Shown in pieces: positions 83 through 19,713 of a stretch of DNA of 25,035 nt. How positions within the stretch are numbered: the first letter of the stretch is position 1; every line of letters starts with the position of its first letter. Both the position numbers and the translations under genes were made by a program. Under the pieces are notes generated by a model. The model was given only the letters and a program-made list of their open reading frames with translations, was not told where the DNA came from and made no database searches. Source of the DNA: a virus; IMG/VR virus record IMGVR_UViG_3300037796_000048, positions 1 through 25,035 of that record; one strand, given 5' to 3'.

Positions 83-154
83 TCCTCGGTAGCTCAATGG
101 TAGAGCGGCCGGCTGTTAACCGGTAGGTTGAAGGTTCGAATCCTTCCCGAGGAG
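83..154 (+). tRNA. tRNA-Asn (anticodon GTT)
   Basis: A full cloverleaf can be drawn: a 7-bp acceptor stem (83-89 with 147-153), D-arm (92-106), anticodon stem 108-112/120-124 with loop 113-119 and anticodon GTT at 115-117, a 5-base variable region, and T-arm 130-146 with the usual TTCGAAT loop. The discriminator base is G154. The CCA end is not encoded (CCT follows). An integrase gene starts 160 bases downstream and reads away from it, so the 3' half of this tRNA is the likely attachment core (attL). A second copy of the 3' end is not present in the window, so attR would be outside it. Confidence 0.95.
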
Positions 155-206
155 CCTCAGACCACACGGGCAACGCCGCAAACCATCCGTACTATCGCCG
201 GTAGGC

Positions 207-8980: not shown

Positions 8981-9000
8981 ACCTGCCCCCTCTTAATCCT

Positions 9001-9027
9001 TACTCCCTACTCCCTACTTCCTGCCTA
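9001..9027 (-). repeat. Heptamer repeat array 1
   Basis: About three to four units of a seven-base repeat (TACTCCC on the + strand, GGGAGTA on the - strand) with some drift (TACTTCC). The array holds the stop codon of the tail tube gene and fills the gap to the G chaperone start. It is one of six similar loci in the window. Confidence 0.85.
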
Positions 9028-10053
9028 CGTCGGCAACGCGCTCACGTCGTTCAGCACCGCGCACTCAAAAACCTTTCCGTAACCGCTATTGTAGACTCCA
9101 TACGCCGGGACCGAGATGATGCTCTGGCCGTCATCGTCGTCGATCATCGGCCAATGCTCATAACGGATCGCCTGATCCAGTTGCAGGTACGGCGGATTGT
9201 CCTGCCCGCTGTCCAATTCCGTCTGACCATTGAGTTCAATCCGCACCAGCCGCGTGTTGCGGCTGCGGTAGTGCCCCCGTTCCGTCTCGGCGTCGCTCCC
9301 GGCCTTATAGACCAGTTCGAGCTCCGGGGCCTTCCTCCCCTCGCTCACCGCGCCAAACGTCAGCGAACCGTCCGCCGTCGGGAACGCAAAAAGACCCGTC
9401 TCCAGCGTCCAGGTGAACGCCCGTAGCAGCCCCGTCTTTTGCGTGCTACCCATCGTCCCGCCGTCATCGTCAATGTAGATCTTCGCCAGGTTAAACGGCG
9501 CCAGTTGCACGCTCTGTTCGCTCAGCCCGCCCGTGAAAGATGTCTCGCTTTTCTCGTCCCCCACGATCGAGACTGTCGCCTCGACCACGCCGTCAGCCTC
9601 GCCGCTGATCTCGATCTCCGTCGCGAAACAAAACCCCGCCTCGAACGCCTGATCGTCGTCGCCGAACTCAAACGTGAATGTCTCGATACCGTTCGCCTGA
9701 TCCGGCGTGTTCGCTCCCGTCAGCGAGGGCGCGAACGTCCACAGGTACGCGTTCGGCTCATTCGTGCTGTCCGGCTGCGTCGGCGTCACATTCCCGCGCA
9801 CACCCATCAGAAGCGGCCAGAGGATGTGCCGAAAATTCAGGTCAAACGTCCACGCCAGCGAGACCCGCTTGCTGACGAACTCATCGTCCTCGTGGTACAA
9901 CGCCAGCGAGTTGCGGTCGTACTCCGGCCGGTGCAACTCATTCTCGTCCTCGAATGCCAGGACACCGCGCAGTACCTCTACCGCCGCCTCGGCCGTGCCG
10001 TGCGTATCCTCTGCGTTACTCGCATAAATCCGTCGGAATGCTTTAAGCCCCAT
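9025..10053 (-). CDS. Major tail tube protein
   Basis: A 342-residue beta-rich protein that should polymerise into the tail tube. Its N-terminus MGLKAFRRIYAS and the region with NLAKIYIDDDGG and TWTLETGLFAF are of the kind seen in large siphophage tail tube proteins. It sits directly before the G/GT chaperone pair and tape measure, which is the strongest support. The ATG at 10053 has GGAGG 6 bases upstream, within the end of the preceding gene, which it overlaps by 11 bases. The stop codon lies in a heptamer array. The sequence match to the family is only moderate; the position is very consistent. Confidence 0.85.
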   Translation of the reverse strand: MGLKAFRRIYASNAEDTHGTAEAAVEVLRGVLAFEDENELHRPEYDRNSLALYHEDDEFVSKRVSLAWTFDLNFRHILWPLLMGVRGNVTPTQPDSTNEPNAYLWTFAPSLTGANTPDQANGIETFTFEFGDDDQAFEAGFCFATEIEISGEADGVVEATVSIVGDEKSETSFTGGLSEQSVQLAPFNLAKIYIDDDGGTMGSTQKTGLLRAFTWTLETGLFAFPTADGSLTFGAVSEGRKAPELELVYKAGSDAETERGHYRSRNTRLVRIELNGQTELDSGQDNPPYLQLDQAIRYEHWPMIDDDDGQSIISVPAYGVYNSGYGKVFECAVLNDVSALPT

Positions 10054-10546
10054 CGTCTCCCTCCAGTCTCTGCTCTACTTCTGCCTCTCGGCTGATTGCC
10101 AGCGCCTGCTCGCGCCAGTCCCTCATCTGCCGCGCGCTCACGCGCGGGATCGTGTCCGCCATCTCCTCCAGGCGCACGTCCGTCATCCCCGCCAGGTCCC
10201 AGGCCGCGCCTATGTCGCGCTCCCGCAAACACGCCGCCGTCTCCGGCCCGATGCCCGTGATCTGCGTCAACGCGCCGTGCTCCTCGCAGCGCAGCCCCCA
10301 GGCCGCCACCGGCTCCCGGCAGCGCGCGCCCCCGTACAGCGGCGCGCCGCAGAACGGCTCCATCTCCGCCAGGTTGACCGGCGCGTACAACCCCGATTGC
10401 GCGATCTCCTCCTGCGTGATCCCCTCCCGCTCCTCGACCTCCATCAGGTCCCGCGGGTACAGGTCCCGGGCCGGGACGCCCATCAGGTACTCGCCCTCGC
10501 GCCCGATCCACTCAAACGCCTTGTGCGCGTCGGTAATCTCGCTCAC
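10043..10546 (-). CDS. Cys-knuckle and helix-hairpin-helix protein of the neck/tail region
   Basis: A 167-residue protein with an acidic helical N-terminus. At residues about 63-91 it has a CGA...G.RC..P....RC..HG pattern (Cys-Cys-Cys-His, probably zinc-binding), like the HGGxSTG-type knuckles found in phage proteins. It is followed by ITGIGPETAACLRERDI, a helix-hairpin-helix of the DUF4332 kind, with a second HhH-like repeat after it. Such domains usually contact nucleic acid, which is unusual between a tail terminator and a tail tube gene. The GTG start at 10546 is preceded by an AGAGGAG Shine-Dalgarno and overlaps the glycosyltransferase gene by 35 bases. It may be a tail accessory protein; its exact role is unknown. 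Confidence 0.7.
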   Translation of the reverse strand: MSEITDAHKAFEWIGREGEYLMGVPARDLYPRDLMEVEEREGITQEEIAQSGLYAPVNLAEMEPFCGAPLYGGARCREPVAAWGLRCEEHGALTQITGIGPETAACLRERDIGAAWDLAGMTDVRLEEMADTIPRVSARQMRDWREQALAISREAEVEQRLEGDDGA

Positions 10547-11135
10547 GTCTCCTCTTCCCCGGCAGCCAGGCTCGCTTGGCTCGCTGCCGCTCCACGCTCC
10601 GCAGGTGGCTCAGATGCAACAAATACGCCTGCTCCCGCGCCACCCGCACCCAGTCCTCGTGCCAGATCAATGTCTCGTCACGCCAGAGGTGGTGATGCGC
10701 GCCGTAGTAGCGCGTATGGCCGAGGTGTTGAAAGATACGCGGCACCCACGACCATCCGCCACCCCGTCTCTGAATTCGCAGCGCATACACCCGCCCGTGC
10801 TCGAGATCGGGCAACTCCCCCAGCAACCTTTCATCCGCATCGATTTGAAAATACCAGTCTCCCTCGTTCCCAATGAGATAAGCATTCCTTTTCTCCACCT
10901 CATCGCGCCAGCAGCGCCGCCTAGAGCCACGCTCAGGCGCGGGAAACCACGAAACACCGTAAGTTTCGGCGATCTCCCGCGTAGCGTCGTCTGAGGAGGC
11001 CGCTCTGTGCGGAAAATCGGCGTAAGCGCCGTCGACCACCACGATCTCGTCCACGAACGGCCTCTGCAGGCTCTCCAGGCAGCCCGGCAGCATCTGCTCC
11101 TCGTTGTAGGCGATCACGCACGCTCTCAGCGTCAC
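10512..11135 (-). CDS. Family 2 glycosyltransferase-like protein
   Basis: A 207-residue GT-A enzyme expected to transfer a sugar from a nucleotide-sugar to an acceptor. CVIAYNEEQMLPGCLESL at the N-terminus is the GT2 nucleotide-binding start, EIVVVDG follows, and WYFQIDADERL (Asp99-x-Asp101) supplies the metal-binding DxD-type motif. It is shorter than many GT2 enzymes (about 230-300 aa) but has the full N-terminal catalytic half and a basic C-terminus. It starts at GTG in a GTGA overlap with the gp37-like tail gene, so it is translated with structural proteins. A role in glycosylating virion proteins or a host surface glycan is an inference. Confidence 0.85.
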   Translation of the reverse strand: MTLRACVIAYNEEQMLPGCLESLQRPFVDEIVVVDGAYADFPHRAASSDDATREIAETYGVSWFPAPERGSRRRCWRDEVEKRNAYLIGNEGDWYFQIDADERLLGELPDLEHGRVYALRIQRRGGGWSWVPRIFQHLGHTRYYGAHHHLWRDETLIWHEDWVRVAREQAYLLHLSHLRSVERQRAKRAWLPGKRRRERDYRRAQGV

Positions 11136-11584
11136 GTCGTAAACTCCCCACTCCCGTCGTACGATACATCTTCTACCACCCGCACCGTGACGCGGGAAAA
11201 GGCGAACTGCGGCACATCCCCGCCGTCATCGGAATACAGCGGCTCGGAAGCCGCGCTCACGTATGCGTTTTTGATCTCGCTCTGTCCGCCCAGCGTCGGA
11301 TTCTCACCGATGGCGTCTACGACTGCCTGGCGCGCAGCGGTGAAATCGGCGTAGGAATCATCGAGGAGACGCCCTAAAACCACCACCGTGTGCTCCCAGG
11401 TGACCTTCACCTGGGACCAGCCGCCCGACCGCTCCGCTGAGATGATCTCCCCCGGCAGAATCACCGCATACGGCGCGCTCCCTCGATCCAGGACGCGGAA
11501 GTCCCCCAGCGTCACGTCGGCGTCGTCGAAGTCGCTCGCCTGGATCAGATCTTGAATGTAGCCCTGGATCGCCGCGTCGCCCAT
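11132..11584 (-). CDS. Tail terminator / Mu gp37-like protein
   Basis: A 150-residue protein between the connector (gp36-like) and tail tube genes, where Mu-like and siphophage genomes place the tail terminator or head-tail joining protein. The fold signature is alpha/beta: an N-terminal helix (IQGYIQDLIQASDF), a strand region with YAVILPGEIISAER, WEHTVVVLGRL, and FTAARQAVVDAI. The ATG at 11584 uses GGGAG of a heptamer repeat as its Shine-Dalgarno, 7 bases upstream. It ends in a GTGA overlap with the glycosyltransferase. The function rests mainly on position and length. Confidence 0.65.
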   Translation of the reverse strand: MGDAAIQGYIQDLIQASDFDDADVTLGDFRVLDRGSAPYAVILPGEIISAERSGGWSQVKVTWEHTVVVLGRLLDDSYADFTAARQAVVDAIGENPTLGGQSEIKNAYVSAASEPLYSDDGGDVPQFAFSRVTVRVVEDVSYDGSGEFTT

Positions 11585-11643
11585 ATCCCTACTCCCTACC
11601 TAGCCATCCTAAGCCTGTCGAAGGATGGCCCTACTCCCTGCCG
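11584..11643 (-). repeat. Heptamer repeat array 2, interrupted by a palindromic element
   Basis: CCCTACTCCCTACC (about 11587-11600) and CCCTACTCCCTGCC (about 11629-11643) are halves of one heptamer array split by a 27-base palindrome. The left part supplies the Shine-Dalgarno of the gp37-like gene and the TAG stop of the sulfotransferase gene. Confidence 0.8.
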
Positions 11644-12234
11644 TATATGCCCCGCCGCCTCCTGGACCACCTCGCTCGGCGGGAACCCGTCACCCGCGCC
11701 AAACACAAACCGCGCCAGCCGACACGCCTGCAGCATCGGATCGACCCGCGTCACCGCCCACCACACGTCCAGCACCGGCCCCTCCCAGGCCGCCAGCACG
11801 CGCATCAGCGCCGAGTACCGCCGTCTGTACCAGTGCCGCGCCTGGTGGTACTCAGCGCCATACGCTCGCTGATACGACGCGATGCACGCCTCCCGCGGCC
11901 GCGTCGCTGTCACCAGCAGCACCTCATCGCAGACCAGTTGTAACAGTGGTAGCGCCTCGCTGGCGATCTCCACGAAAGCCGGGATTTTGAAACCCCACAG
12001 CGGCTGCTTGCTCAGCGCAGCGAAGACCGGTCGGAACGCCTCCACCGGCTCGCGTCCCGCCACCACCCGCCGCGTCAGCGTCATCAACCGCGCGTCCTCG
12101 AACGTGCCCCAGGGATTATTGCCATCCGCTTCCACGAACGGCGCGCCCATCGGCACGCCCAGGAGGTGCAGCATCCCCGCCGTCGCGGAGGTCCCGCTCC
12201 GGCCCGTCCCCAGCACGCACACGCACCGGCTCAT
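11596..12234 (-). CDS. Sulfotransferase-like protein
   Basis: A 212-residue P-loop enzyme expected to transfer sulfate from PAPS to an acceptor, probably a glycan. The N-terminal VLGTGRSGTSATAGML (P-loop near residues 8-16) matches the 5'-phosphosulfate-binding loop. LLVTATRPREACIASYQR matches the 3'-phosphate-binding motif with its Arg and Ser. The ATG at 12234 is in an ATGA overlap with the connector gene and is preferred over an upstream in-frame codon at 12249. The last ten or so codons (SFDRLRMAR) come from a palindromic repeat and a heptamer repeat, so the native C-terminus has been replaced. Its place among neck genes, one gene from a glycosyltransferase, suggests a shared glycan-modifying role. 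Confidence 0.85.
   Translation of the reverse strand: MSRCVCVLGTGRSGTSATAGMLHLLGVPMGAPFVEADGNNPWGTFEDARLMTLTRRVVAGREPVEAFRPVFAALSKQPLWGFKIPAFVEIASEALPLLQLVCDEVLLVTATRPREACIASYQRAYGAEYHQARHWYRRRYSALMRVLAAWEGPVLDVWWAVTRVDPMLQACRLARFVFGAGDGFPPSEVVQEAAGHIRQGVGPSFDRLRMAR
11603..11629 (-). repeat. Palindromic repeat element, copy 1
   Basis: GCCATCC (11603-11609) and GGATGGC (11623-11629) flank a 13-base loop containing TCGA. Copy 2 at 20204-20230 is the same over 22 of 27 positions, and one change in the stem is compensated on the other side. Here it encodes the last residues of the sulfotransferase gene. Confidence 0.85.
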
Positions 12235-12743
12235 CAGCCCGTATCCCACTCGATGATGTTATTGCCCATCTGCTGCCGGTCGAACATCGGGTGGAGTTCG
12301 TCGCCGCTATCATCCTCCGTCCGGCACGCCAGCCCGTCCGTCAGGTGCCGCGTCCGCGTCGCGCCCAGCGCCTCGAACCCGGAGGCGTGCGATGCGATGA
12401 ACTCCTCCGCCTCCTCGATGATGGCGGATCGCGCCCGCCGCCCGCGCAACTCCGTGCTGCCCGGCGCGTACGGCCCGGCGCCGTTGGCCGCGTGGCAGAG
12501 CTGCGCGGCCTGGTCAACCGCGAAGTCATCCAGCGCCAACTTGGCATCAGCCTGGCTCACTGGCACCTCGAAGCCCGCCTGCGCCAGCAGCACGTTCAAG
12601 ACGCCCGAGACGCGGTCGATGAATTTCTCCACCTGCGTCAGCGTCGGCCGCGTGTCCGCGTCGTAACTGCCGTTATCCGTGTAGCGCAGCGTCAGCGCCT
12701 CTACCTCAGCCACGCTCCCGTAGGAATTGCTCCCGATTGCCAT
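12234..12743 (-). CDS. Head-tail connector, Mu gp36 / gp6-like
   Basis: A 169-residue mostly helical protein. Its N-terminus (SNSYGSVAEVEALTLRYTDN) and following VEKFIDRVSGVLNVLLAQAGFEVP, then a long helix with ALDDFAVDQAAQLCHA, fit the DUF1320/gp36 and gp6-type connectors. These attach beneath the portal and prepare the head for the tail. The C-terminal third (about 115-169) is extra. It has GAGG 7 bases before the ATG at 12743, which follows the previous stop by one base. It is in the expected position between capsid genes and the tail terminator. The assignment is by pattern and synteny. Confidence 0.75.
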   Translation of the reverse strand: MAIGSNSYGSVAEVEALTLRYTDNGSYDADTRPTLTQVEKFIDRVSGVLNVLLAQAGFEVPVSQADAKLALDDFAVDQAAQLCHAANGAGPYAPGSTELRGRRARSAIIEEAEEFIASHASGFEALGATRTRHLTDGLACRTEDDSGDELHPMFDRQQMGNNIIEWDTG

Positions 12744-12744
12744 A

Positions 12745-13119
12745 TCACCGCCTCACATAGACGTAGACCGTCACCGCCGCGTCAAACGCATTGCATTGCG
12801 CCACGCTCACTTTCACCGTCCCGCTGATCGGGATCGGGCGGTACGTGCTCCGCCCCGTCCCGGCGGTGTCGGTCTCCTCGATGGTCGGATAGAACCAGGC
12901 GTCCGTCGCGGAATCATCCTTGTCCACCAGCGTGATCTCCGGATGGTCGTCGTCGCTCTCACACACCACATCGATGTCGCTGGTCGCTGGCGCGCTGCCG
13001 TTCCAATCCACATAGATCGCCACCACCTCGCCCACCAGCGCCCGCGCGCTAGCCTGCGAGCCGGACGCCGAGCCATCGCTGCCGGTCGTCTCTACCGCGA
13101 TCTTCTCAGTCGTGATCAT
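12745..13119 (-). CDS. Small beta-rich structural protein
   Basis: A 124-residue acidic protein with alternating hydrophobic strands (VVAIYVDWNG, GTVKVSVAQCNAFDAAVTVYVYVRR), giving a likely single beta-sandwich or jelly roll. No family is recognised. It overlaps the previous gene by 14 bases and is followed by the connector gene after one base, so it is in the head operon. A head decoration or stopper protein would fit. The ATG at 13119 fits the operon spacing. Confidence 0.7.
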   Translation of the reverse strand: MITTEKIAVETTGSDGSASGSQASARALVGEVVAIYVDWNGSAPATSDIDVVCESDDDHPEITLVDKDDSATDAWFYPTIEETDTAGTGRSTYRPIPISGTVKVSVAQCNAFDAAVTVYVYVRR

Positions 13120-13417
13120 CTAGCGCCTCCTCCACATCCCCCACCAGCACCCGGCCCTCCTCGCCGCTGCCCGGCACCAGCGAGGTCAGATCAACGTCGT
13201 GCTCCTCCGCCAGATCCCGCGCCGCGTTGGTCGCGTCCACCGCCTCGGGCTCCGGCGCGTCCATCTCCTCGATAGTCAGCAGCAGCGAGTTGCGCATCTC
13301 CTTGTTGATGTGTCCCTCGGCCATCACCGTGCCGCTTTTCGTGAACTCACGCCCCGCGACGCGCACGCGCGCCCAGCGATGATCCTCCCGCACCTTGACG
13401 TTATATCGTTTTGCCAT
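13106..13417 (-). CDS. gp35-like protein with C-terminal peripheral-subunit-binding-like domain
   Basis: A 103-residue protein that takes the place of Mu-like gp35 between capsid and gp36 genes. The N-terminal half (MAKRYNVKVRED to NSLLLTIEEM) resembles FluMu gp35/HI1506-type proteins. Residues about 62-100 (AARDLAEEHDVDLTSL, then GSGEEGRVLVGDVEEAL) closely follow the peripheral-subunit-binding (E3-binding) domain of dihydrolipoamide acyltransferases. The start is placed at 13417, because AGGAGG lies 7 bases upstream; a longer in-frame ORF reaches into the previous gene without support. In a phage this small domain probably binds a capsid partner, but that is inferred. Confidence 0.75.
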   Translation of the reverse strand: MAKRYNVKVREDHRWARVRVAGREFTKSGTVMAEGHINKEMRNSLLLTIEEMDAPEPEAVDATNAARDLAEEHDVDLTSLVPGSGEEGRVLVGDVEEALDDHD

Positions 13418-13427
13418 CGCTCGCCTC

Positions 13428-14039
13428 CTACTCGTTGCCGATAGCGCACCACTGAACGGTGCCCCCAGCCGTAGCCGCACTGGCATCATCCTGCCAGACA
13501 TTGACCACAATATCGCCGGAAGTCCCATCCGGTGCATCGACGGTCACGAACCACGGATCCCCTGCGCCAGTACCTGGATCGCTGCCCAACGCGGCGATGC
13601 CAAATGTGACGGTCGTGATATCGCTCACCGTCACCGTCTGGTTAGCACCCGTGATCACCTCTGAGCCACATTGAATCTCATAACTCTGCGATGCATACGC
13701 CAGTGGGTAGAGGCTGTTGCTGCCGTACTGAAGTGCACCAGTTACATTCAAATCGTCTGTCACAGTCACCGCGCCCGTGCCGCTGCTCAGGTTCCCGTCC
13801 ACGTCAAGCGTGCTGTTCAGCGTCGCCGCGCCATCGGCGTTTAACGTCCCGGCCACGTCCGTGTTGCCCGCGTCGGTGACGGCGAAGATCTCCGTCCCCG
13901 TGCCATCCTCCAACCGGAGCGCATAGCCGCTCACGCTCATCACCTGATATTCCGTCCGCGTCTCCAGGTACGCCACCACGCCAGCAACCGCCAGCACCGT
14001 TACTAAAACCGCAATCGCAACCCTATGCCACGTTTTCAT
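13428..14039 (-). CDS. Membrane-anchored beta-repeat protein in the head operon
   Basis: A 203-residue protein with an N-terminal signal-anchor (HRVAIAVLVTVLAVAGVVAYL, residues about 5-25) and no lipobox. Beta repeats follow (AGTLNADGAATLN, STLDVDGNL, VTVTDDLNVTGAL) of the kind that form beta-helical or trimeric fibres, then a globular C-terminal part with Cys-Gly and Trp-Cys near the end. The ATG at 14039 is preferred over an adjacent GTG, since AAGGAGG is 7 bases upstream. That Shine-Dalgarno continues from a heptamer array. The start lies within the end of the CHAT-like gene (17-base overlap). A membrane anchor is odd for a head protein; surface display or exclusion functions are possible. 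Confidence 0.8.
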   Translation of the reverse strand: MKTWHRVAIAVLVTVLAVAGVVAYLETRTEYQVMSVSGYALRLEDGTGTEIFAVTDAGNTDVAGTLNADGAATLNSTLDVDGNLSSGTGAVTVTDDLNVTGALQYGSNSLYPLAYASQSYEIQCGSEVITGANQTVTVSDITTVTFGIAALGSDPGTGAGDPWFVTVDAPDGTSGDIVVNVWQDDASAATAGGTVQWCAIGNE

Positions 14040-14586
14040 CACCCACCTCCTTACTCCCTACTCCATACTCCCTACTCACCACCGCAAACTGAGCCGCGTC
14101 GCGATCGCTCGCCCGCCAGCCCGTCAGCCGCAACCGCCAGCGCGCCGCTTGCAACGCCCGCTCCACGCCAGCGCCCAGACGCATCAACCGTATCACCCAC
14201 TGCACCAGGAGATCGGCCCCCACCACCCGCTCCGCTGCCGCCACGTTCTCCCCGGGACCGGCGATGACCAGCGCCGCCCCCGCTTCGTAGAACGCTCGCA
14301 CCATCGCGCCATTCTCCGCACCGTAGCACGTCGCCGCCACCACCACCGCGCCCCCCAGGTCCGCTCGCGTCACCTGGATCGGCGCCAGCGCCATCGTGCC
14401 CTCATCGTTGTACCACGCCGTGCTGTGCGGCTTGCCGTGCAGCCGGAAGTACAAAAGGTCATATCCCTCCAGCCACTGCGGATCGAACCTGGAGGCCCGC
14501 ATCGGCGGCGATGTGAGCGGCGATGCGTCAAGCGCCGCCCCCACCGCCAGCCGTGCGCTGTACGTGCAGTAGGCCAGGATCTTCAT
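14023..14586 (-). CDS. CHAT/caspase-like cysteine peptidase
   Basis: A 187-residue protein with the marks of a clan CD (CHAT or gingipain-like) peptidase. DLLYFRLHG carries catalytic His50-Gly51 after a hydrophobic strand. VVVAATCYGAENG carries catalytic Cys87 after the next strand. AFYEAGAALVIAGPGENVA and LGAGVERALQAARWRL match the conserved C-terminal part of CHAT domains. It has no signal peptide. The ATG at 14586 lies six bases after the capsid stop; an in-frame extension to 14778 would run inside the capsid gene and is rejected. The 3' end passes through a heptamer array and has VSREYGVGSKEVG as its tail. The gene sits between major capsid and a membrane-anchored protein, yet a Mu I-type protease already exists here. 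Substrate and role are unknown. Confidence 0.8.
   Translation of the reverse strand: MKILAYCTYSARLAVGAALDASPLTSPPMRASRFDPQWLEGYDLLYFRLHGKPHSTAWYNDEGTMALAPIQVTRADLGGAVVVAATCYGAENGAMVRAFYEAGAALVIAGPGENVAAAERVVGADLLVQWVIRLMRLGAGVERALQAARWRLRLTGWRASDRDAAQFAVVSREYGVGSKEVGDENVA
14051..14078 (-). repeat. Heptamer repeat array 3
   Basis: Four units (TTACTCCCTACTCCATACTC and onward) inside the 3' end of the CHAT-like gene. Read on the - strand it encodes the SREYGVGSKEVG tail and runs into the AAGGAGG Shine-Dalgarno of the next gene. Confidence 0.85.
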
Positions 14587-14591
14587 CGCGC

Positions 14592-15482
14592 CTACGTATT
14601 GCCCTGCGCCGCCAGGCGCCAGTCGCCGTAATACATCTCGTAGCGCGCGTGCCACTGCCAGTAGTAGATCCCACCCTCTTCCTGCTGCGGATCGAACCAC
14701 ATCGCGTTCAGTGTCGGCGATTTGCGCATCACGACCAGGATCGGCTTGATCTCCTCGCTGCTGGCGGCCAGATACCAAGCCGCGCTGTCCAACTGCGGAG
14801 AGGTCAGCAGATCGTAATCGCCGCTGTACGGGTTTTTCTCATTGTTGGCGGTATCGTATGCTTTGGGGTTACCGACGATCTGGAACGCGGTCCGCTTCAG
14901 GTCCGGCGCGCAGACCAGAAGGTCGTGGTTGTAGTTGACGTACTCGCCCTGATCATCCACGAATTTCTGCGCCGCCACCTCGACCGTCTCGAAGTTATCC
15001 AGCGAGAGCGCCAGCGTGAACTCGTTGTCCTGGTTTGTCTGGTAGTGGGCACCCTCGTCCACGTGGTCGTTGTCGAAGAAGTGCTGACCGTCGTAGCAGA
15101 GCCCATACGTCGCGCTGTCCCCGCCGTTCAACACCGTGAAGACACGGTTGTTGATATGCTTGTCGAAGTTGCGCCCGGCCTGCCGCGCCTGCGTCTCCAG
15201 CGAGTCGGTTTGGTCGTCATCGATGGCATTCTGGCTGATCTTGACCGTCACATACCAGTCCTGCGGTTTGACCGCAATGTTTTTCTCGATCATATCCTGA
15301 ATGACCTGTGGGTTCTTGGTCGGCATCGGCGCCGAGCCCAGGTCCACTACATCCATCGAGCCGCTGTCCATCTGCACCATCTGCGCGATGCGCCGCCACG
15401 TCTGCGGCGCATCCTTGAATGCGCTCAGAAAGCCGGTCTTCACCCCGACCGTCAAATGCTTTGGAACATTGCCTGTTAACAT
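14592..15482 (-). CDS. Major capsid protein, Mu gpT-like
   Basis: A 296-residue major head subunit of the Mu gpT family. Typical elements are the N-terminal helix (PKHLTVGVKTGFLSAF), the E-loop region, CYDGQHFFDNDH in the middle (the gpT signature of D-G-x-x-F-F-x-x-x-H), and the C-terminal ILVVMRKSP and YEMYYGDWRLAAQG. The ATG at 15482 has AGGAGG five bases upstream, formed by the edge of a heptamer-type array. It is preceded by the decoration protein and followed within six bases by the CHAT-like gene. No N-terminal prodomain is seen, so cleavage, if it occurs, would be by the separate I-type protease. Confidence 0.9.
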   Translation of the reverse strand: MLTGNVPKHLTVGVKTGFLSAFKDAPQTWRRIAQMVQMDSGSMDVVDLGSAPMPTKNPQVIQDMIEKNIAVKPQDWYVTVKISQNAIDDDQTDSLETQARQAGRNFDKHINNRVFTVLNGGDSATYGLCYDGQHFFDNDHVDEGAHYQTNQDNEFTLALSLDNFETVEVAAQKFVDDQGEYVNYNHDLLVCAPDLKRTAFQIVGNPKAYDTANNEKNPYSGDYDLLTSPQLDSAAWYLAASSEEIKPILVVMRKSPTLNAMWFDPQQEEGGIYYWQWHARYEMYYGDWRLAAQGNT

Positions 15483-15488
15483 ATCCTC

Positions 15489-15519
15489 CTCCTACTTCCT
15501 ACTTCCTACTTCCTACTTA
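15489..15519 (-). repeat. Heptamer repeat array 4 (TACTTCC variant)
   Basis: Four units of the variant TACTTCC fill the gap between decoration protein and capsid genes. On the - strand (GGAAGTA) the array leads straight into the AGGAGGAGG Shine-Dalgarno of the capsid gene. Confidence 0.85.
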
Positions 15520-16002: not shown

Positions 16003-16044
16003 TCCTCCCTACTCCCTACTCCCTACTTCTTACTCCCTATTCCC
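16003..16044 (-). repeat. Heptamer repeat array 5
   Basis: About five to six units (CCTCCCTACTCCCTACTCCC and onward, then TACTTCT, TACTCCC, TATTCCC). It contains the stop codon of the protease-scaffold gene and gives the Shine-Dalgarno of the decoration gene. It is the longest array in the window. Confidence 0.88.
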
Positions 16045-17263
16045 GATCCTCAAACTCCGTCAGATCGTACTCGCTCATCTCGCCGAGCTCGGCCGCGTTG
16101 ATCTCAAAGAACTCCTCAAGGTCGTGACCGGCCTCCAGCCAACTTTCCAAATGCTTGCGCATCCCTGCCGGCAACTCCTGAGCACCGCCCTGCCCCTCGC
16201 GGCTGCTGCCACGCTCAGAGAGATCCACGTAGCCCGCCTCCAGCACCTCCCGCCAGGCCTCGCGCTCATCCTCGTCCATCTGCGCCATCAGTTCCGCCAC
16301 CTGCTCCGGGTCCGCCGCCAGATTGACCTCCTCGGCGAATTCCGTCAATTCGGTAACCGTCTCGCGCTCGGCCAGATAGGCAGCCTCCACCTCTTCCCGC
16401 ACCTGCTCGCGCAGTTCTGCGCGGGTACGCTCCTCCTCCTCCATCTCCGCCAGGACCTCCTCGCGGATCTGCTCCCTCAGTTCCTCCTCGTTCACAGCCT
16501 CCTCCTCTCCGTTACTTGCCTGCTGATCCAGGACCTCTTCCTCCGCATCCTCCTCCGCCGCCTCGACCTGCTCGAACACGCCGCGCACGGCGCTGACGAT
16601 GCGCTCAATCAAACTCTCCTGTAATTCCATCGTATAGCCTCCCTCGGCCAACTCCACCGGTTGCAAACCCTTCACCGCCGGGAAATTGACCAGACTGATG
16701 CTCTTCAAAACCTGCCGCGCCGTGTCGATCGTCGCGCTCAGGTACCGGTACACCCGCTCCCCGACCAACTCCTCGCCCAGCGAGTTCCAGTCCACCCGCG
16801 CCAGCAGTCGGTCGCCGCGCCGCCAAACCTCCGTCACCCAGCCCGCGGCCTCGCCTTTTTCGTGATCGACGTCGATCGGCACCTCCTGACCCGCCGCGCC
16901 AGCCTTGAAGTTCGCCACCAGCGCCGCCAGGTCCTCGCGCGTCACCTCCACCTCACGCCCGTGCGCGTCCGTGAACACGCCCACCCGCAGGAACTCGACC
17001 GGCTGGCCCTCCTGGAGGTGCGCCTCGGCGAACAGGAACTCCCCGGCCTCGGCATCCTCCTCCTTCTTCACCCAGCGCCCATCCTCGACCTCGTACAGAT
17101 CCTTGAACCGCGCGATAGCCGCCGCCCAGGGATTCTCTGGCCCGTCCTCCGCCTCCTCCATCGCGTCGGCCCACCCCGCGATCACGTTCGCCTGCTCCAG
17201 CGTCACCCGCGGCTCGATCCCCTTGATCGCCTCGTTTACCTCGTCCCACTCGCTGTATGGCAT
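16037..17263 (-). CDS. ChaB-like, Mu I-type protease and scaffold fusion
   Basis: A 408-residue head maturation protein with three parts. Residues about 1-70 look like a ChaB domain (ANVIAGWADAME, PWAAAIARFKDLYEVEDGRW). Residues about 88-208 match the Mu gpI protease family: VPIDVDHEKGEAAGW (Asp133, His134), VYRYLSATID, and SLVNFPAVKGLQPVEL. Residues about 215-408 are highly acidic and coiled-coil, the internal scaffold around which the procapsid builds. In Mu the scaffold is made from a nested start in the same gene; METs near the junction (YTMELQES, about residue 212) may serve here. The ATG at 17263 has GGGGTG upstream. Confidence 0.88.
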   Translation of the reverse strand: MPYSEWDEVNEAIKGIEPRVTLEQANVIAGWADAMEEAEDGPENPWAAAIARFKDLYEVEDGRWVKKEEDAEAGEFLFAEAHLQEGQPVEFLRVGVFTDAHGREVEVTREDLAALVANFKAGAAGQEVPIDVDHEKGEAAGWVTEVWRRGDRLLARVDWNSLGEELVGERVYRYLSATIDTARQVLKSISLVNFPAVKGLQPVELAEGGYTMELQESLIERIVSAVRGVFEQVEAAEEDAEEEVLDQQASNGEEEAVNEEELREQIREEVLAEMEEEERTRAELREQVREEVEAAYLAERETVTELTEFAEEVNLAADPEQVAELMAQMDEDEREAWREVLEAGYVDLSERGSSREGQGGAQELPAGMRKHLESWLEAGHDLEEFFEINAAELGEMSEYDLTEFEDRE

Positions 17264-17713: not shown

Positions 17714-19713
17714 TGCACTTCACTCAATTGCTTGCCCAGGTATTTCTTCTTCTCCGCACCCACGATCATCTTGTGCAACTCACCGCACCCGTTCACCCGG
17801 CCCCACGGCGTGCTCAGCGGCCGCTTGCACACCCGCTCATCCCGGGCCGTGTACCACACGATCACCCAGTCGCCATTGTCCAGGAGCATCGGGTGCGTGG
17901 AGCACCGACAGCGCGGATGCGCGGGCGCCTTGTAGCGCGTCCTCGGCAGCCCGATCCGCTGGCGCGTGATGTCATTCGCCTCGTCAAACGCGCGCGTCAC
18001 CTCCGTGCTGGCGATCAACTCCGCTCGCCGCGGCCCGAACACCGGCGCCAGCGTCCGCGTCAACTCATCCAACTCCGCGCCCGTCTCGATCCACGAGGCC
18101 ACCGCCTCCCGGACCGCGTTGCGCGTCGTCATCGTCACGTTACTGATCAACTCGCCCGCGTACTGCCGCGCCCAGGCTGCCGCTTCCTCATTCACCCCGG
18201 CCCAATCGACCCCGCCGCCGACTTCCTCCTCCACGTCGTCCGTCGCCATCGAGATCAGGCGCTGCACAGCCTGCACCAGCCGCCCCAGGAACTCCTTCCG
18301 CAGCCGCGCGCTCTCCTCCTGCCAGAACGCGTCGTCGTCCGCCACGTCCCGGTCCCGCTCCACCGCCTCAACCACGCGCTCCTGCTGCTCGTCCAGGAAC
18401 TGGCGTAAATCGTCGCCTAACTCATTCTCAATCCGCGCCCGCTGCTTCCGCCGCCCCTGCTCCGCAAACTCCGCCAGCCCCTCCTCATCCTCATCCTCCA
18501 CGCTCTCCTGCTCGTCTACTCCATACTCCCTACTCCCTACTCCCGCCGTTGGCATTCCGGTTCTCTTCCTGATCCAATTCTCATCCTCCGGCGTCCACGT
18601 CAGCAAGTCGCCCACCTGCTGCAGCCAGTTGCCCAATTGCCCCAGCGCGGGCTTCTCTACCTTCGTGTGCGTCAGGCGCGCCCGGCCCTTGATCTGCGGG
18701 TTGTACTGCAGCAACCGCGGCACTGCGAAGCGGTTGACCACGCTCGCCAGCCGGTCCAGCGTCCCGTCCGTGGCCATCAAAAAGAGCTGCGATTTGTCGC
18801 TCCCCAGCGCCCACGAGCCGGTCTGGCCCGTGCCCAAATTGATGAAGTCCGCCAGCATTGTTTGGAGCATCAGCAGCCGATAATACCGAATCGTGCTCAA
18901 TAGCGCCTCGGCGTTGGTGTTGCTCACGCTGGTCAACGAGAAATTCACGCCGCTCGGCACGCTCACGTACTGCTTCGCGTCCACCGCGAGCGCCTGGCCC
19001 ACGCTCTCGACCTGGCTCTGGTCCTCGCTGCTCGGCTTCTCCTCGAACTCGAAAGTCGGCAGCCCCACGAACGACCGCTGCCAGCCGATACCGTTGATGA
19101 TCTGCAGATTTTTCAAGTAATACCAGGTCTCATAGAGCGATTCCAGCAGCGCCAGCCCCTCCGGATTCCCCCCGTCCCGCTGGAACGTGAAATGGAGGCT
19201 CTTCTGGATCGGGATCGTGATCTCCTCGTAGTCCGGCGCCGGGCGCTGCACCAGCGCCTGGAGCCCGCCGGTCTCGTCGAACTGCCACTTGTGGAAGGAA
19301 CTCTGCCGGCGCACGGCCCACTTCCGCCAGCCGATATAACCCTCGCGCTCCTCGCGCCGCTTGTAGCAGATCTCCAGCCAGGACCAGCCGAACATCACGC
19401 ACGTCAGCGCGTCCTCGATGGCGTCGGCGGGCGTATGGCTCATATCGTGCAGACAATCGTCCAGAAAATCCGCCGCCGCCCGGTCCTCCGCGCTCTCACT
19501 CTCCGGCTCGAAGTACCACTGGGCGGTGCGAGAAAGCATCACCAGCGCGTTCCACATCGTTCGGATCGTCGGATCGCGCCTGCGCATCTCATCATACACA
19601 TCATACACTGCGGGCCACTCCAATTTTGATGTATAAGACTCGGAGACCTGCCCCGCGAACTCCAGTAGCCCCGTCCTTCCGACCTCATTCATCGTCAGCG
19701 GTATCCGTACCAT
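17710..19713 (-). CDS. Portal protein (DUF935/gp29-like) fused to MuF-type head protein
   Basis: A 667-residue fusion. Residues about 1-375 are a Mu gp29-like portal (RRRDPTIRTMWNALVMLSRTAQW, GWSWLEICYKRR, FINLGTGQTGSWALGSDKSQ). From about residue 405 a long acidic helical linker leads to a MuF-like head morphogenesis domain (VTMTTRNAVREAVASWIE, AELIASTEVTRAFDEAN). Near the end, HPRCRC comes before WYTARDERVC, the reverse of the usual order. The ATG at 19713 is chosen, with GGGAG four bases upstream; an upstream GTG at 19755 lacks a Shine-Dalgarno. A heptamer array (18515-18544) is inserted in frame in the linker at about residue 390-400. In Mu these two proteins are separate. Confidence 0.9.
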   Translation of the reverse strand: MVRIPLTMNEVGRTGLLEFAGQVSESYTSKLEWPAVYDVYDEMRRRDPTIRTMWNALVMLSRTAQWYFEPESESAEDRAAADFLDDCLHDMSHTPADAIEDALTCVMFGWSWLEICYKRREEREGYIGWRKWAVRRQSSFHKWQFDETGGLQALVQRPAPDYEEITIPIQKSLHFTFQRDGGNPEGLALLESLYETWYYLKNLQIINGIGWQRSFVGLPTFEFEEKPSSEDQSQVESVGQALAVDAKQYVSVPSGVNFSLTSVSNTNAEALLSTIRYYRLLMLQTMLADFINLGTGQTGSWALGSDKSQLFLMATDGTLDRLASVVNRFAVPRLLQYNPQIKGRARLTHTKVEKPALGQLGNWLQQVGDLLTWTPEDENWIRKRTGMPTAGVGSREYGVDEQESVEDEDEEGLAEFAEQGRRKQRARIENELGDDLRQFLDEQQERVVEAVERDRDVADDDAFWQEESARLRKEFLGRLVQAVQRLISMATDDVEEEVGGGVDWAGVNEEAAAWARQYAGELISNVTMTTRNAVREAVASWIETGAELDELTRTLAPVFGPRRAELIASTEVTRAFDEANDITRQRIGLPRTRYKAPAHPRCRCSTHPMLLDNGDWVIVWYTARDERVCKRPLSTPWGRVNGCGELHKMIVGAEKKKYLGKQLSEVQ
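18515..18544 (-). repeat. Heptamer repeat array 6, in-frame within portal-MuF
   Basis: Four units (TACTCCATACTCCCTACTCC and onward) inside the coding sequence. On the - strand it encodes GVGSREYGVDE between the portal and MuF parts. The unit is seven bases, so three units give seven codons. The array keeps the frame open. Confidence 0.9.

Follow-up and report, generated by a model that had tools for sequence, protein, structure and literature searches.

A predicted minimal clan CD cysteine peptidase encoded beside an anchored, mostly fibre-like protein in uncultured phages

Work on peptidases of the CHAT and C25-like kinds has dealt with their part in bacterial defence and cell death. We know of no role for such an enzyme in the structural operon of a tailed phage, and a literature search for such a role found none. 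Several described systems can nevertheless be compared with the phage locus presented here. Among the CHAT proteases (PF12770), which include SAVED-CHAT and Csx29 of Craspase, Csx29 (H615/C658) makes one cut in Csx30, a protein encoded in the same locus (PMC10028731), and this provides a precedent for the limited cutting of a partner encoded at the same site. The phage peptidase has the fold, the register of the catalytic dyad and the C-terminal helices in common with these proteases, and it resembles Csx29 in its pairing with a protein encoded alongside, but it corresponds to the catalytic half only, has no TPR or SAVED sensor, and is located in a phage head operon. The gingipain family C25 (PF01364) can be reached from the phage peptidase through TPR proteins of Chloroflexota, although the phage protein differs from it in lacking a Pfam match, a signal peptide and the N-terminal subdomain A, which is absent from all the phage proteins (171-195 aa). 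Finally, a Mu I-type prohead protease (phrog_976) is encoded in the same head module, but as a separate gene found only by its own profile, while the peptidase has no match to phrog_976.

The window, meaning the whole stretch of DNA analysed, has 25,035 bases and is a virus record of IMG/VR. The peptidase open reading frame was confirmed on the minus strand at 14023..14586, with the ATG at 14586 and the stop codon ending at 14023, and encodes 187 aa. It begins 5 nt past the end of the capsid gene (15482..14592) and overlaps the downstream partner gene by 17 nt. The dN/dS values of seven pairs of close relatives fall between 0.26 and 0.36, which indicates a real gene under purifying selection. 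The last ~13 residues (about 175-187) are unconserved, have a pLDDT below 50, and are in part encoded by a tandem heptamer repeat of the TACTCCC type (CTCCATACTCCCTA, 14047..14077, plus strand); since this tail is modelled as disordered and coincides with the repeat, it should be disregarded. Tandem heptamers of the same type are present at 8997-9036, 11577-11599, 14047-14077, 15490-15518, 16005-16044 and 18516-18544; they lie in intergenic stretches or where genes end, and some of them lengthen reading frames.

In regard to the assignment of the protein, direct searches of Pfam, PHROG, NCBIfam and PDB sequences with the 187-aa protein gave no usable match. The Pfam CHAT model recognised none of 16 family members and found nothing in three phage contigs, no phage protein passed the Pfam C25 cut-off, and head-protease PHROGs gave no match to the window protein and only weak, scattered matches to other members. 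Structure and profile comparisons were more informative. The AlphaFold model built from 22 sequences (pLDDT 88.5) contains the caspase-like sheet expected from the sequence-only reading, with strand 44-48 preceding His50 and strand 81-84 preceding Cys87. The best Foldseek matches in the PDB were DdvA, SAVED-CHAT and Csx29 (prob 1.00), together with another bacterial complex, 7x8a, and separase followed lower (prob 0.98); a search of BFVD added a single unnamed structural neighbour, A0A1P8DJ94 (prob 1.00, E 4.7e-3). The profile of the phage family matched CHAT at 95.9% (E 5.5e-9), with His aligned on His and Cys on Cys, over positions 120-262 of the 289-position CHAT alignment only. Two elements considered conserved at the outset, GAALVIAG and ERALQAARWRL, were recovered in this comparison, where AALVIAG and ALQAARWRL of the window protein align with the corresponding CHAT elements. 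Similarity to Peptidase C14 (PF00656) was not significant (0.5%, or 15.5% with the combined phage and TPR profile), and a response-regulator control profile gave 0.1-0.2%, i.e. a null result.

The predicted catalytic histidine, His50 (codon 14437..14439, minus strand), and the predicted nucleophile, Cys87 (codon 14326..14328, minus strand), lie just past these two strands, in the contexts RLHG and ATCYG. Both are retained in all 24 distinct phage contigs, comprising a 22-sequence alignment and two further contigs. The initial reading had picked out His50-Gly51 (RLHG) and Cys87 (AATCYGAENG); His50 and Cys87 proved invariant, but Gly51 is replaced by R in three loci (L010, L016, L024) and by S in three others (L018, L026, L028). 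Such retention should not be taken for granted, since among 19 Chloroflexota TPR relatives examined four have lost the Cys and one the His. As judged by the predicted fold, the profile comparisons and the invariant dyad, which agree with each other, the window protein belongs to the clan CD cysteine peptidases (CHAT/caspase/separase fold). The original assignment was thus borne out, even though Pfam CHAT does not detect the protein, and neither of the two outcomes named at the outset as refuting it, a fold lacking the caspase-like sheet or homologues in which His50 and Cys87 vary, was observed.

By sequence profile, the phage peptidase has its nearest cellular relatives in the C-terminal domains of TPR proteins from Chloroflexota (L070-L088). 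Their C25-like catalytic domain is shared with the phage family profile at 99.8% (E 1.4e-27), including the elements SPP, YFxLHG, ACYGA and GADLL. Unlike the phage protein, they are 800-1000 aa long and contain TPRs as well as what looks by eye like a subdomain A of gingipain type; they have no adjoining fibre gene and are often located beside another TPR protein, in tandem, of 1300-1600 aa. Of four TPR relatives scanned with Pfam C25, two passed its cut-off (L072 and L074, the latter with E 7e-16). The phage profile compared directly with C25 gave no significant match (E 0.49), while the combined phage and TPR profile reached both CHAT (97.6%, E 4.8e-12) and C25 (92.6%, E 4.5e-7). We therefore treat the phage protein as a new, minimal family of CHAT/C25-like type that consists of the catalytic half only and lies outside CHAT and C25 in the Pfam sense, because both Pfam models are blind to it and its nearest relatives are C25-like TPR proteins.

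Iterated scans of IMG/VR revealed relatives of the peptidase on 24 further contigs; the 24 distinct phage-type contigs considered above are those left after removal of near-duplicates, with the window counted. No relative was found in named phages or plasmids, where the plasmid matches were at chance level (E 5-9), and a first scan of genome contigs for the peptidase also found none. In a profile search of 400 Chloroflexota genomes, one phage-type copy was found, on a small contig of a single genome (L069/L109, E 1e-46), and 27 other genomes held peptidase-like domains of mostly large TPR proteins (E down to 1.8e-18). A second scan of genome contigs, with the terminase, identified one Chloroflexi MAG (L029) carrying a related terminase with a different capsid and with neither the peptidase nor the tagged fibre. 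The viruses carrying the peptidase are uncultured and their hosts are probably Chloroflexota, the host group guessed initially, as this phylum is the source of the sole cellular phage-type copy, in a peptidase profile search limited to Chloroflexota, and of the sole related terminase in genomes.

What the sequence-only reading did not include is the partner of the peptidase. In the window, it is the downstream gene at 13428..14039 (minus strand), which encodes a fibre-like protein with an N-terminal hydrophobic segment, predicted to be a membrane anchor or signal (VAIAVLVTVLAVAGVVAY, 13968..14021, minus strand), followed closely by the motif YQVMS (13935..13949, minus strand). A peptidase neighbour with an N-terminal anchor or lipobox is present in all 23 readable loci, L021 being left out of this count as its contig ends too early. 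The anchor comprises ~18 hydrophobic residues, and several partners have a lipobox (L018, L019, L026, L027/L028). The passenger is fibre-like in every partner with three exceptions, L109 and the two truncated ones L018 and L019, whose passengers are not callable as fibres. Some partners end in a Phage_depo_C beta-sandwich (E 5.4e-10 in L011, E 6.7e-7 in L010); elsewhere, fibre-like denotes repeat-rich beta sequence judged by eye. In many loci the peptidase and partner genes overlap. A Q-x-M form follows the anchor in 20 of 23 partners and is missing in the divergent loci L109, L189 and L191, for which reason it was dropped as a universal processing tag. A second anchored structural protein was observed in two loci, L010 (9560-10066) and L024 (5533-6063), where homologues of the window gene 12745-13119 have gained a fibre-type anchor and an EYQVM start.

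Automatic scoring found a hydrophobic N-terminus in 16 of 18 neighbours and in 9 of 219 other ORFs (Fisher p 1e-16). The neighbour was defined as the more hydrophobic of the two flanking ORFs and related loci were taken as independent, so this p value overstates the evidence, although the effect is still large. Both neighbours missed by the scoring are on contigs cut inside the partner, and their visible start carries the anchor; the five loci outside the automatic scoring are likewise anchored, which completes the count of 23. Searches in the opposite direction, starting from fibre N-termini, returned peptidase-bearing contigs exclusively (10/10 and 3/3, i.e. 13/13).

The capsid context of the pair is less constant. 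In the window and in most relatives, the pair follows a Mu-type capsid protein (Mu gpT type, phrog_371; E 2.7e-37 for the window gene at 14592..15482, minus strand), in the order MCP-peptidase-fibre. In L015, L028 and L189 it follows a fused protease-capsid protein (phrog_29592/133/4523) and in L191 an HK97-type capsid (phrog_10), and in these four loci the fibre gene precedes the peptidase gene. The position directly after the capsid gene, pointed out initially, is accurate for the window but incidental for the family, in which the constant partner is the anchored fibre-like protein. A link of the peptidase to capsid type was rejected, as three capsid families occur, and the three families together with both gene orders are better explained by a functional linkage between peptidase and fibre than by linkage to the capsid. 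The branching of the peptidase tree is not resolved well enough to date the capsid swaps.

Since the enzyme, wherever found, adjoins the gene of a membrane-anchored, mostly fibre-like protein, the two proteins probably work as a pair, one not previously described. We propose a two-gene late cassette composed of a peptidase, predicted to be active, and an exported or anchored fibre. The peptidase would be a minimal, catalytically intact single domain with no separate regulatory domain; it would make a limited cut in the fibre protein, or in a protein acting with the fibre, and this cut may control how the fibre matures, is assembled or leaves the membrane. The most likely candidate for the substrate is the fibre itself. 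This reading, of a single-domain clan CD peptidase with the dyad His50/Cys87, paired in the late head operon with an anchored fibre and cutting either it or a co-acting protein, is the one we tentatively prefer, while stopping short of calling it probable. The main objection to the fibre as substrate is topological, with a cytosolic enzyme and an exported partner: the N-terminus of the peptidase forms strand 1 of the fold and no export signal is recognisable, while the anchor would place the fibre outside, which would restrict contact between the two to the stage before export, to the membrane or to lysis. The absence of Q-x-M, the obvious candidate cut site, from L109, L189 and L191 also counts against cutting of the fibre. 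Moreover, the linkage might be due merely to both genes being late morons.

It is also possible, if doubtful, that the pair forms a mobile cassette exchanged between phages with different capsids, in which the minimal caspase-like peptidase would process or release the anchored, exported fibre for display or shedding at the host surface. Given that work on such peptidases has concerned bacterial defence and cell death, the persistence in a phage family of a seemingly active copy, invariably next to a protein that is exported or anchored, points to a hitherto unrecognised step in phage assembly, release or surface behaviour. The pair supplies a ready substrate candidate, which makes the proposal directly testable.

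Alternatively, the peptidase could be a cytosolic anti-host effector that cuts a host defence component, an anti-sigma factor or another regulator, with the fibre acting as an independent surface moron, e.g. in superinfection exclusion. Anti-defence action was one of the roles conjectured in the initial reading, along with capsid processing and injection. The enzyme's lack of an export signal fits such a role, Chloroflexota are rich in CHAT, C14 and C25 proteins, and one bacterial CHAT peptidase does act by cutting a regulator (PMC10028731). We regard this explanation as unlikely, as it accounts neither for the anchored protein adjoining the enzyme in 23/23 loci, nor for the fibre searches that returned peptidase contigs only, nor for the location in a head operon.

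Lower still is the probability that the enzyme is a second protease of head maturation, acting on the capsid protein or on a cargo protein packaged in the virion. In every Mu-type locus the peptidase gene is indeed flanked by the capsid gene on one side and by downstream structural genes on the other, but the window already encodes a head protease, the Mu I-type enzyme noticed from the start (16037..17263, minus strand; phrog_976, E 1.3e-21), and the fused-capsid phages have theirs within the protease-capsid protein. The peptidase is, in addition, retained beside three capsid families, and in L015, L028, L189 and L191 the fibre gene separates it from the genes on the capsid side.

A non-hydrolytic function of the dyad, either in a sortase-like transpeptidase or ligase that couples the exported fibre to a second protein or in a purely binding protein, appears very improbable. 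Clan CD includes transpeptidases (legumain-type ligases, PorU), and an additional cysteine, Cys7, is invariant in the 22-sequence alignment of the phage peptidases; against this, an acceptor motif was not found, the enzyme is apparently cytosolic, and the conserved dyad argues against mere binding. That a Rossmann-like or flavodoxin-like protein merely happens to look like a peptidase can practically be dismissed: flavodoxins appeared in the Foldseek lists mostly with the first, poorer model, whereas the list of the better model is led by CHAT and separase chains, with flavodoxins down to a TM-score of about 0.34, and the CHAT profile is in register at both catalytic residues while the control is null.

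Several other genes of the window were observed. A structural-module gene at 13106-13444 (minus strand), with homologues in most related loci, encodes an E3_binding domain (PF02817, E 1.2e-8), which is the peripheral-subunit-binding domain of 2-oxoacid dehydrogenase complexes. Visual inspection of the head-tail module also suggested a family 2 glycosyltransferase and a protein resembling sulfotransferases (10512-11135 and 11596-12249, minus strand), and a tRNA-Asn(gtt) is located at 83-156 (plus strand), near the left end of the record.
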